The notes below the pieces were generated by a model. It ran no database searches. It saw nothing but the letters and a program-made list of their open reading frames with translations, and was not told the DNA's origin. DNA of 61,028 nucleotides. Origin: a virus. Below, one piece after another: positions 13,201 to 15,808 of the stretch (the stretch's first letter is position 1; the number at the start of each line of letters is the position of its first letter). The position numbers and the translations under genes were made by a program. The stretch covers positions 1 to 61,028 of the IMG/VR virus record IMGVR_UViG_3300036774_000039; one strand, 5' to 3'.

Positions 13201-13466
13201 TCTGGCAAGCGTCGGTCTATTTCTCGTTCGACGATACCGAGCGGGACTGCGAGGTGGAATTCACCCCCGTCAAGGCTACCCGCGATACGTGGGGTTATGC
13301 CGGTGGGGAACCTGGTGAGCCGGCGCACGTAGAAGACATCCACGTTCTCGTCAGCGGGAAAGACGTGACCAATCTCCTCACCCAGCCAGAACTCAACGCC
13401 CTCGAGGATCGGTGCATCAATTACGCAGAGGGATACGGTGAGCCCGATCCAGACGTTGAAGGATGA
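13197..13466 (+). CDS. Hypothetical beta-rich protein
   Basis: An 89-aa protein; ATG 13197 sits in the previous stop, with AAAGGA just upstream. The pattern ASVYFSFDDTERDCEVEFTP with DIHVLVSGKDVTNLL suggests a small beta domain. Acidic overall. It overlaps the methyltransferase start by 4 bases. Confidence 0.6.
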   Translation: MIWQASVYFSFDDTERDCEVEFTPVKATRDTWGYAGGEPGEPAHVEDIHVLVSGKDVTNLLTQPELNALEDRCINYAEGYGEPDPDVEG

Positions 13467-14806
13467 ACCATCTCGATCTCTTCAGCGGTATCGGAGGCTT
13501 CTCTCTCGCTGCCGATTGGGTGTGGGGTGAAGAACACAAGATTGTCGCGTTCGTCGAATGGGACGAGTTTTGTCAGAAGGTTCTACGCAAGCACTGGCCT
13601 GGAGTCCCGATCTATGGCGACATAGGAGGAATAGAGTGGAACGGATTTGCCCTTGTTGCAAGAGAAGACCAAAGGTCGCAGGAATCGCCTACTGCCGAGA
13701 ATGCGCGACCCTCCAATCTACGCGATGGCGTCAAGAAAATAGAGAGCGACATCGGAAGTCCCAGCGCGAATGGTGCAGACGAAAGAAAGACGAAATCATC
13801 TCCCACTATGGGGGAAAGTGTGCCTGTTGTGGAGAGACAACAAGAGAATTTCTCACCATTGACCACAAGCACAATAACGGAAACGCCGAACGGAGAGCGT
13901 ATAAATCGCAAACATGGAAACTCGCCCTCCGACGAGGGTTGCCGAACGACTACCAAATCCTCTGCTATAACTGCAACAACGCAAGATCGCACCGGGGAAT
14001 ATGCCCACACGAAAACAAAAATTGACCTCCTTACAGGGGGATTTCCTTGCCAGCCTTTCAGTGTCGCAGGGAAAAAACTTGGGAGAGACGATCACCGCTG
14101 GCTCTGGCCGGAGATGCTACGAGTTATTCACGAATCTCGGCCCCGCTGGGTCCTGGCAGAGAACGTTCCTGGAATCCTTAACATCGAACAAGGCGTGGTA
14201 TTCGAGACTGTGTACTCCGATCTGGCGAGTGAAGGCTACGAAGTTTTCCCGCCGCTTGTACTTCCAGCTTGTGCCGTTGGTGCGCCGCACAGAAGGGACA
14301 GGGTGTGGATCGTTGCTCACCACACCCAACACGCAGGACTTTCGGGACACACCGGACGAACTGCGCCCCTCGAGAATAGCGACGGGCAGGAAAACCGACT
14401 ATCTCAGCCGGCAGATCGGGATGCTCAGAACACCCGACGCGCATATGGAGAGAGGCCCGAGATCCCCGGAGAACCTCCACGACCGGTACGTGGTGAGGAA
14501 GATGCCCCTCTGCCTGAACGACCAGTTAGCGATGCTCCCGACTCCCAAGGGGAGGGACTGGAAGGGGGAGACTCGGCGGGGCCCAGAGAATCCAGGCGAC
14601 GGTCTGCAGAACACCCTCTCAGCGGTGAGCGGGATCTCGAAGCAGGACCGTGGCGAGAAGAATGGATTGAGGTTGCAACCGAATTTTGTCGAGTGGATGC
14701 AAGGATTCCCGATAGGGTGGACCGACTTAAAAGCCTAGGGAACGCGATCGTTCCCCAGGTCGCCGAGGCGATTCTCCGGGCGATAAAAACCGCCGATGAA
14801 GTCTGA
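13463..14806 (+). CDS. DNA (cytosine-5) methyltransferase with internal insertion
   Basis: A 447-aa Dcm-type enzyme that methylates cytosine in host or phage DNA. Motif I is LDLFSGIGGFSLAA (4-17), motif IV GGFPCQPFS with catalytic C196, motif VI ENVPG (E233), motif VIII APHRRDRVWIVA (275-285) and motif X LKSLGNAIVPQVAEAIL (422-438). Motifs II/III and IV are normally close, but here about 125 residues of low-complexity S/T/E/K-rich sequence (about 60-186) intervene. That stretch is the out-of-frame reading of an inserted HNH gene. The target-recognition part (about 286-400) overlaps a third gene in another frame. The frame is open throughout and all motifs survive, so activity is possible but not assured. 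Confidence 0.85.
   Translation: MNHLDLFSGIGGFSLAADWVWGEEHKIVAFVEWDEFCQKVLRKHWPGVPIYGDIGGIEWNGFALVAREDQRSQESPTAENARPSNLRDGVKKIESDIGSPSANGADERKTKSSPTMGESVPVVERQQENFSPLTTSTITETPNGERINRKHGNSPSDEGCRTTTKSSAITATTQDRTGEYAHTKTKIDLLTGGFPCQPFSVAGKKLGRDDHRWLWPEMLRVIHESRPRWVLAENVPGILNIEQGVVFETVYSDLASEGYEVFPPLVLPACAVGAPHRRDRVWIVAHHTQHAGLSGHTGRTAPLENSDGQENRLSQPADRDAQNTRRAYGERPEIPGEPPRPVRGEEDAPLPERPVSDAPDSQGEGLEGGDSAGPRESRRRSAEHPLSGERDLEAGPWREEWIEVATEFCRVDARIPDRVDRLKSLGNAIVPQVAEAILRAIKTADEV
13636..14025 (+). CDS. HNH endonuclease nested inside the methyltransferase gene
   Basis: A 129-aa protein in a different frame from the methyltransferase that surrounds it. It has its own start signal: GGAGGA at 13625-13630 and GTG at 13636. 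An N-terminal zinc finger (CPCCKRRPKVAG, YCRECAT) is followed by a basic linker and the core KCACCGET, FLTIDHKHNNGN, YQILCYNCNNARSHRGICPH, a form common in free-standing phage HNH proteins. The stop lies at the junction with IDLLTGGFPCQ of the methyltransferase. The gene looks like a mobile endonuclease that entered without breaking the host frame. Confidence 0.8.
   Translation: MERICPCCKRRPKVAGIAYCRECATLQSTRWRQENRERHRKSQREWCRRKKDEIISHYGGKCACCGETTREFLTIDHKHNNGNAERRAYKSQTWKLALRRGLPNDYQILCYNCNNARSHRGICPHENKN
14001..14738 (+). CDS. Overprinted protein nested in the methyltransferase C-terminal half
   Basis: A 245-aa protein in the third frame, starting in the tail of the nested HNH gene and ending inside the methyltransferase. 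Conserved-looking pieces are SGRRCYELFTNLGPAGSW, RLYFQLVPLVRRTEGTG, LLTTPNTQDF, LPTPKGRDWKGE and FVEWMQGFPIGWTDL. I recall many phage and bacterial proteins with these signatures (YFQLVP, LPTP, FVEWxMGFPxGWT) overlapping dcm-like genes and labelled methylase or hypothetical; this is memory, not a search. It may act with the methyltransferase, for example in target recognition. GGGGA precedes ATG 14001. Confidence 0.65.
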   Translation: MPTRKQKLTSLQGDFLASLSVSQGKNLGETITAGSGRRCYELFTNLGPAGSWQRTFLESLTSNKAWYSRLCTPIWRVKATKFSRRLYFQLVPLVRRTEGTGCGSLLTTPNTQDFRDTPDELRPSRIATGRKTDYLSRQIGMLRTPDAHMERGPRSPENLHDRYVVRKMPLCLNDQLAMLPTPKGRDWKGETRRGPENPGDGLQNTLSAVSGISKQDRGEKNGLRLQPNFVEWMQGFPIGWTDLKA

Positions 14807-14863: not shown

Positions 14864-15808
14864 GTGAAAATCGAAATCAGACACAGATACGAGAATAGAG
14901 TCTTGTTTGAGGGGGAATTCGGCTCTCTGAAAATCGCAGTTGAGGCGGGGGTTAAATCATGCGCAAACCTCAGGGGCGCATTCCTCAGGGGCGCATACCT
15001 CGGGGGCGCAAACCTCGGGGGCGCAAACCTCGGGGGCGCAGACCTCGGGGGCGCAAACCTCGGGGGCGCAAACCTCGGGGGCGCAGACCTCACGGTCGCA
15101 GACCTCGGGGGCGCAAACCTCGGGGGCGCAAACCTCAGGGGCGCAGACCTCACGAGCGCAGACCTCACGAGCGCATACCTCAGGGGCGCAGACCTCACGC
15201 GCGCAGACCTCAGGGGCGCAGACCTCAGTGGCGCAGACCTCAGTGGCGCAGACCTCACGAGCGCAGACCTCACGGGCGCAGACCTCAGTGGCGCAGACCT
15301 CACGAGCGCAGACCTCACGAGCGCATACCTCGGGGGCGCAGACCTCGGGGGCGCAGACCTCAGGGGCGCAGACCTCACGCGCGCATACCTCACGGGCGCA
15401 GACCTCAGGGGCGCAGACCTCACGCGCGCAGACCTCACGCGCGCACACCTCATGGGCGCATACCTCACGGGCGCAAAAGGCATCGAGAAGCAACCGCCCC
15501 AAACGATCATTACCCCGCAGGGGTCAATCATCGGTTGGAAAAAGTGCAACGACGGAGTGTTGGTGAAGCTGATAATCCCCGAGGGAGCCAAGCGGTCAAA
15601 CGCATCAGGAAGGAAGTGCAGAGCAGAGTACGCGACGGTTCTTGAAGTCATTGGGGCGGAAGTTGGCATCACCACCGAACGCGGCCCAAGGACGGAGTAC
15701 CGCGTTCTCCAGACGGTGAAGCCCGACAAGTGGGACGATGACTGGCGAAACGAATGTTCCAACGGGATTCACTTCTTTTTGACCAGAGAGGAAGCTGAAC
15801 AGTTTTAG
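14864..15808 (+). CDS. Pentapeptide-repeat protein with DUF5758-like C-terminus
   Basis: A 314-aa protein from GTG 14864 (AGGAGG upstream). After about 35 residues come some 34 tandem A(N/D)LxG units, which fold as a right-handed square beta helix that can mimic DNA duplex. The C-terminal 100 residues (GSIIGWKKCNDGVLVKLII, CRAEYATVLEVIG) match what I know as DUF5758. Known relatives protect gyrase or bind unknown partners; here the target is not visible. The coding repeats are nearly identical at DNA level. The leader contains CCGTCTCACTTTC, repeated before the next gene. Confidence 0.85.
   Translation: MKIEIRHRYENRVLFEGEFGSLKIAVEAGVKSCANLRGAFLRGAYLGGANLGGANLGGADLGGANLGGANLGGADLTVADLGGANLGGANLRGADLTSADLTSAYLRGADLTRADLRGADLSGADLSGADLTSADLTGADLSGADLTSADLTSAYLGGADLGGADLRGADLTRAYLTGADLRGADLTRADLTRAHLMGAYLTGAKGIEKQPPQTIITPQGSIIGWKKCNDGVLVKLIIPEGAKRSNASGRKCRAEYATVLEVIGAEVGITTERGPRTEYRVLQTVKPDKWDDDWRNECSNGIHFFLTREEAEQF
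14970..15475 (+). repeat. 15-base tandem repeat array coding the pentapeptides
   Basis: About 34 copies of a 15-base unit close to CCTC(a/g)(g/c)GGGCGCA(a/g)A, with differences mainly at two or three positions. Because the unit is a multiple of three and lacks stops, every frame on both strands stays open across it. The low divergence points to recent expansion, and copy number may vary between phages or be misassembled. Confidence 0.9.

Follow-up and report, generated by a model that had tools for sequence, protein, structure and literature searches.

A nested +1 reading frame in a phage C5-cytosine methyltransferase gene that probably encodes a recognition subunit

M.EcoHK31I (YGGCCR) was reportedly described by Lee, Kam and Shaw in 1995 as a two-polypeptide C5-cytosine methyltransferase (C5-MTase), and the gene of its small subunit also lies inside that of the large subunit, in another frame. 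M.AquI is a second two-polypeptide C5-MTase, with motifs I-VIII on one chain and motifs IX and X on the other. For M.EcoHK31I it has been described that motifs I-VIII and X are on the large subunit and motif IX is on the small one, and the predicted TRD was placed on the large subunit (PMC3404938). TRDs have in addition been associated with a 'TL' motif, P(STCA)PT(ILV) (PMC2413257). Here we analyse a locus carried by a virus (IMG/VR record IMGVR_UViG_3300036774_000039; the window, i.e. the whole stretch analysed, has 61,028 nucleotides), in which an MTase frame, called alpha, contains a second frame, called beta, probably the other chain of the same enzyme.

Layout of the locus and of the beta family

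The features of the locus, in the coordinates of the window, are the following.

13463..14806, + strand: alpha ORF, C5-cytosine methyltransferase (PF00145, 2.2e-43)
~13472, + strand: motif I, alpha frame
13625..14014, + strand: insertion separating alpha motifs I and IV, ~125-130 codons long, alpha frame kept open, boundaries approximate
13636..14025, + strand: HNH endonuclease, 129 aa, third forward frame, GTG as probable start, AGGAGG 6 nt before it
14001..14738, + strand: beta ORF, nested, +1 frame of alpha, 245 aa, ATG to TAG (phrog_1008, 2.7e-24)
14001..14300, + strand: beta residues 1-100, overprinted on alpha motifs IV-VIII (AlphaFold2, hhalign, silent-site divergence)
~14042, + strand: motif IV (PCQ), alpha frame
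~14159, + strand: motif VI (ENV), alpha frame
~14276-14320, + strand: motif VIII, alpha frame
14316-14423, 14424-14534 and 14535-14669, + strand: three tandem recognition-type units (L-x-T-P...) of beta, from the unit analysis
14321..14650, + strand: alpha reading of the recognition segment, a low-constraint linker from motif VIII to the C-terminal W..EVA...RVDRLKSLGNAIVPQ block
14667..14729, + strand: motif IX (LRLQPNFVEWMQGFPIGWTDL) on beta, in register with M.HhaI 273-297
~14740-14760, + strand: motif X (GNAIVPQ), alpha frame

The alignment of alpha with M.HhaI ends at residue 171-176 (motif VIII), motif X follows later, and motif IX is absent from the alpha frame over 13463..14806. The first-pass annotation had assigned motifs IV-X to one frame, which is correct for motifs IV, VI, VIII and X (and also for motif I), all of them in alpha, but not for motif IX, which is in the nested frame. 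The four peptides it had quoted from the other frame, SGRRCYEL, YFQLVP, LPTPKGRDW and FVEWMQGFPIGWT, were all recovered there, at beta residues 34-41, 87-92, 179-187 and 229-241 respectively. Directly downstream of the MTase, at 14864-15808, there is a pentapeptide-repeat protein (PF00805, 6.6e-87) with a DUF5758 C-terminus.

Motifs I and IV are separated by 180 aa in the window, versus 50-69 in 295 of 325 distinct MTases, and among these 325 only the window has an HNH-bearing insertion. The longer version of the HNH ORF matches phrog_2255 (2.4e-12), and a match to Endonuclease_7 (4e-4) is below the Pfam cut-off; the protein has relatives among the free-standing HNH proteins of phages (46% to Synechococcus phage S-SRM01) and probably starts at the GTG at 13636, not at 13558. 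The use of all three forward frames, already proposed for this locus, is true of the locus overall, but the three frames are used simultaneously only at 14001-14025.

The phrog_1008 match covers nearly the whole length of beta, and the label of this family is 'DNA methyltransferase'; searches of Pfam, NCBIfam and PDB with the beta sequence gave no match. The AlphaFold2 model of beta alone has low confidence (mean pLDDT 61.8), and comparing it with PDB by Foldseek returned nothing usable. The prediction for residues 1-100 comprises helices at 23-44 and 51-62 and a beta-hairpin at 72-93, and a helix at 227-234, in motif IX, is predicted with good confidence. This motif IX (LRLQPNFVEWMQGFPIGWTDL) aligns in register with M.HhaI RKLHPRECARVMGYPDSYKV, a match that is weak alone (E 0.0015, probability 16%), and it is also in register with the in-frame motif IX of the single-chain relatives. 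In 172 of 176 loci the nested frame has an ATG close to its beginning, versus 41 and 17 for the other two frames; in the window this ATG is not preceded by a good Shine-Dalgarno sequence.

IMG/VR, annotated phages and GTDB genomes of many phyla together gave 199 beta-encoding loci; in every one beta is in the +1 frame of an MTase, and in none is it free-standing. The first-pass annotation, which had linked the pattern to proteins overlapping dcm genes elsewhere, is borne out in this respect. The nested arrangement is present in hundreds of phage and bacterial sequences and is seldom annotated. The nested gene is unannotated, for example, in Salmonella phage S9-5 (L036), Microcystis phage Mel-JY01 (L037) and Bacteroides phage BKO1-TP3 (L029). 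Several Paenibacillus, Arthrobacter, Streptomyces and Mycobacterium phages (L027, L028, L032-L034, L038) have overlapping or split genes both annotated as 'DNA methyltransferase/methylase', and these doubly annotated pairs are probably the two subunits of one enzyme. Relatives of beta in phrog_1008 and in Paenibacillus larvae phages carry the annotation 'g50 internal gene' or that of a second methyltransferase; these annotations assign no role and make no connection with motif IX or recognition. Identical-scoring copies of nested MTases were also observed, five on one Roseovarius chromosome (OX638333.1; L159-L161, L163, L164) and others on three contigs of Lihuaxuella thermophila (L133-L135); in both organisms they are probably multi-copy prophages or mobile elements.

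Constraint in the two frames

To guard against circularity, relatives were gathered by alpha alignment alone, ignoring the nested frame, which gave 76 usable loci. The +1 frame is free of stops from motif IV to near motif X in 74 of them (2.3 expected), with 2 stops in total versus 269 expected from synonymous-codon shuffles, while the +2 frame is open in none of the 76. The window itself has 0 stops in the +1 frame versus 4.3 expected, a value as low as this being reached in none of 300 synonymous-codon shuffles. Our first count, 0 stops versus 736 in 177 loci, is partly circular because those loci had been picked by beta, and the alpha-picked set therefore replaces it; the count for AT-rich loci (n=23, <45% GC), 0 stops versus 104 expected, is beta-picked and partly circular as well.

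Silent sites were evaluated in 159 closely related pairs from 72 loci. Four-fold sites of alpha differ by 0.463 upstream of the overlap, 0.182 over motifs IV-VIII, 0.064 from the recognition segment to motif IX and 0.402 downstream, where it should be noted that the pairs are not independent and that only overlap columns aligned in both frames were used, a condition that may bias the set towards conserved positions. The contrast of one frame with the other uses identical columns and is hence internal: in the last overlap segment the four-fold sites of the nested frame differ by 0.30 versus 0.064 for those of alpha, and protein identity is 0.77 for the nested frame versus 0.64 for alpha. The alpha linker at 14321..14650 has these same values, identity 0.64 and silent-site divergence 0.064, the latter meaning that its third positions are held by the beta frame. 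When the window was compared with 121 relatives, four-fold divergence of alpha was 0.745 on the 5' side, 0.467 and 0.233 inside the overlap and 0.786 on the 3' side. A previous position-rate test on alpha-only alignments was blurred by misalignment of the recognition segment and was redone on dual-aligned columns. The content of order-promoting residues does not distinguish the alpha linker from the beta units (0.272 vs 0.278).

Both the alpha and the nested frame are under selection, and downstream of residue ~100 the nested frame dominates, the alpha reading being largely passive. The second frame had been said to look selected, and the stop counts and silent-site constraint agree; the synonymous-rate analysis in both frames over homologs, which the first-pass annotation had suggested as a check, found alpha silent sites constrained inside the overlap, and neither frequent stops in the nested frame nor a lack of dual-frame constraint, the outcomes named there as speaking against the idea, occurred.

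Single-chain relatives, other arrangements and tandem units

The relatives include loci (L284, L293, L309, L357 and others) in which a single ORF contains motifs I-VIII, LPTP-type units, a W(G/F)xYxxAIxRWE segment, motif IX and motif X. The predicted L284 model and M.HhaI align over their whole length (Z 23.3, rmsd 3.3, 232 residues), and the LPTP segment of the model, with pLDDT below 50, is unmodelled. Using hhalign, we compared the beta profile with the two parts of these proteins: the part after motif VIII matched with probability 99.2% (E 7.5e-20) over residues 101-242 of the window's beta, whereas the I-VIII part gave no match, and beta residues 1-100 found no counterpart in single-chain MTases. 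Residues 101-242 are accordingly homologous to the recognition-plus-IX region of single-chain MTases. The single-chain genes are also a natural negative control for the +1 constraint: in the 16 loci there are 63 stops in the +1 frame after motif VIII versus 61.9 expected, and 23 versus 32.9 over motifs IV-VIII, which amounts to little depletion. Four arrangements can be listed.

Arrangement 1, nested (the window): alpha with motifs I-VIII and X; beta with the units and motif IX
Arrangement 2, split (Firecracker gp6/gp5, Juno112 gp41/gp42, Samora 34/35, L112, L157, L175): alpha stops after motif VIII; beta with the units and motifs IX and X
Arrangement 3, 44 loci (L335, L336, L343 and 41 others): alpha with motifs I-VIII, IX and X; units alone in the +1 frame, with exactly one +1 stop just before motif IX in 37 of the 44
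Arrangement 4, single chain: 16 loci

Modules therefore move between frames, a behavior that fits pieces of one enzyme and is a poor fit for an unrelated passenger gene.

Between the hairpin and motif IX, 172 of 175 loci have 1-5 units with a median of 40 aa, starting with L/W-P-T-P. Distant pairs of loci sharing a unit have a mean unit identity of 66% versus 45% for the N-terminal domain, a contrast that is partly a selection effect; the selection effect is much smaller for the observation that the following unit is also common to both in only 3 of 157 cases. Shared units in distant pairs differ in ordinal position in 157 of 253 cases and, conversely, at least one unit differs in 41 of 43 pairs with near-identical N-terminal domains. 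The second unit of the window is close to units of L002, L014 and L120, where it is found among different neighbours. In five other loci (L019, L020, L022, L024, L025) the beta N-terminal domains are 97-100% identical and the unit arrays differ, which is recent gain, loss or swap of 40-residue units. Units are thus exchanged between phages. Their function is most likely recognition of the DNA target, a putative role for which the resemblance of their PTPT core to the 'TL' motif of TRDs (PMC2413257) is suggestive only.

A probable two-polypeptide enzyme and its known counterparts

Taking these results together, we consider it quite probable that the overlapping frames of the locus encode a C5-cytosine methyltransferase made of two polypeptides, alpha being the catalytic chain and beta the chain for recognition and motif IX. 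Since beta is homologous to the recognition and IX segments of single-chain enzymes, where the +1 frame is not constrained, the nested gene most likely encodes a beta subunit. The original proposal of a separate gene overprinted on the recognition half of the methyltransferase was not supported by this comparison, as after motif VIII the nested frame is the recognition segment and motif IX itself. Strictly speaking, overprinting seems to be confined to roughly residues 1-100, which lie over motifs IV-VIII; the rest has its homolog in a segment that single-chain enzymes keep in frame. This truly overprinted part may have a role in subunit docking.

Other explanations have to be weighed against this one. 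The ribosome might pass from alpha to the +1 frame after motif VIII by programmed frameshifting, making one long methyltransferase of which the nested frame would be the shifted C-terminus. Single-chain versions do exist, and in split loci a +1 shift at the alpha stop would complete the enzyme, a few of these stops being in a TGA C context. However, no shared slippery sequence was found at the 27 alpha stops of split loci where it was looked for, the nested type needs a second shift back to reach motif X, and the first 100 codons of beta, which frameshifting would not need, are nevertheless conserved over motifs IV-VIII together with their ATG; for these reasons we regard frameshifting as improbable. 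Beta could also be an independent overprinted protein with another function (e.g. an inhibitor, a regulator or an anti-restriction factor) that merely lies on the MTase, as might be thought from residues 1-100, with no single-chain counterpart, and from the lack of Pfam, NCBIfam and PDB matches. The homology of the C-terminal 60% of beta to the single-chain recognition-plus-IX segment, the absence of motif IX from alpha and the fact that beta is never seen away from an MTase make such a protein very improbable.

The possibility that openness and conservation of the +1 frame are due only to the alpha protein sequence and to high G+C codon usage deserves mention, given that high-GC genes have fewer stops in other frames and that beta has its strongest motifs where alpha has motif VIII and the stretch preceding motif X. 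Synonymous-codon shuffles predict hundreds of stops, though, and almost none occur; AT-rich loci are open too (beta-picked, hence partly circular); the single-chain relatives have about as many +1 stops after motif VIII as expected; and after motif VIII beta is more conserved than alpha. A by-product of alpha conservation was therefore rejected on the shuffle tests, the silent sites and the single-chain control, and its probability is negligible.

In the two-polypeptide enzyme, alpha would bind AdoMet and contribute the catalytic motifs I-VIII and X, whereas beta would be translated from its own ATG, one base out of the alpha frame, as an N-terminal overprinted segment followed by three recognition-type units in tandem, each of ~40 residues, and by motif IX. 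Together the two chains would form a single HhaI-like enzyme, its small (target-recognition) domain coming mostly from beta, and alpha would cross the recognition stretch as a tolerant linker to motif X. The phage would probably use this methylation to protect its DNA from host restriction, and target sites would be altered or gained when units are exchanged. Separate translation, assembly, recognition by the units and the anti-restriction role are what we infer from the sequence. For the relatives as a group, the chances appear about even that they form a widespread class of phage MTases hiding specificity in the +1 frame, with swappable 40-residue cassettes and a catalytic frame that is kept open, in at least three two-chain motif patterns besides the single-chain form. 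If this holds, one recombination could rewrite specificity and leave the enzyme intact, since cassettes would be swapped while the catalytic frame remains open.

Hundreds of phage and prophage MTase genes seem to contain an essential second subunit that is missing from annotations or wrongly labelled in them; if this is true, an enzyme cloned as alpha alone would be inactive or wrongly characterised. The low-complexity look of the recognition region in the annotated frame would also be explained by the overlap. More generally, this is a very widespread same-strand overlap in dsDNA phages that is supported by selection, it comes with a single-chain control for studying the origin of overlapping genes, and methylation specificities of a modular kind might be obtained from it.

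Precedents exist for two-chain C5 methyltransferases, for tandem TRDs and for hidden HNH insertions. In our literature search, which covered papers available without subscription, we found no paper on a nested recognition subunit, its breadth, its selection or the exchange of its units. The HNH gene is comparable to that of ShiLan, where an out-of-frame HNH is located in a phage methylase with the host frame open and a GTG shortly past the boundary, as in the window (PMC11855218); the methylase context is different, and the likeness is one of arrangement. Multispecific C5-MTases of Bacillus phages (SPR, phi3T, rho11, H2) have tandem exchangeable units between motifs VIII and IX, as here (PMC8936443), but there everything is on one chain and in one frame, whereas in the window the units are in the nested +1 frame. 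The motif division of M.AquI is the one observed in the split relatives (L032-L034, L112, L157, L175 and others), while the window has motif X on alpha and an extensive overlap of the two genes. Searches of plasmids reached no recognisable M.EcoHK31I-like system; the likeness to this enzyme is drawn from its published description. On that basis the motifs are divided in the same way, the large chain having I-VIII and X and the small one having IX; however, M.EcoHK31I is predicted to have its TRD on the large chain, whereas the recognition-like units of the window are in the beta frame, are constrained there and occur in tandem, and the window system is also carried by a phage, where no restriction enzyme was recognised among the flanking ORFs tested. 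Because of the different TRD prediction we do not claim strict membership, but we propose that the window's enzyme would work like M.EcoHK31I.
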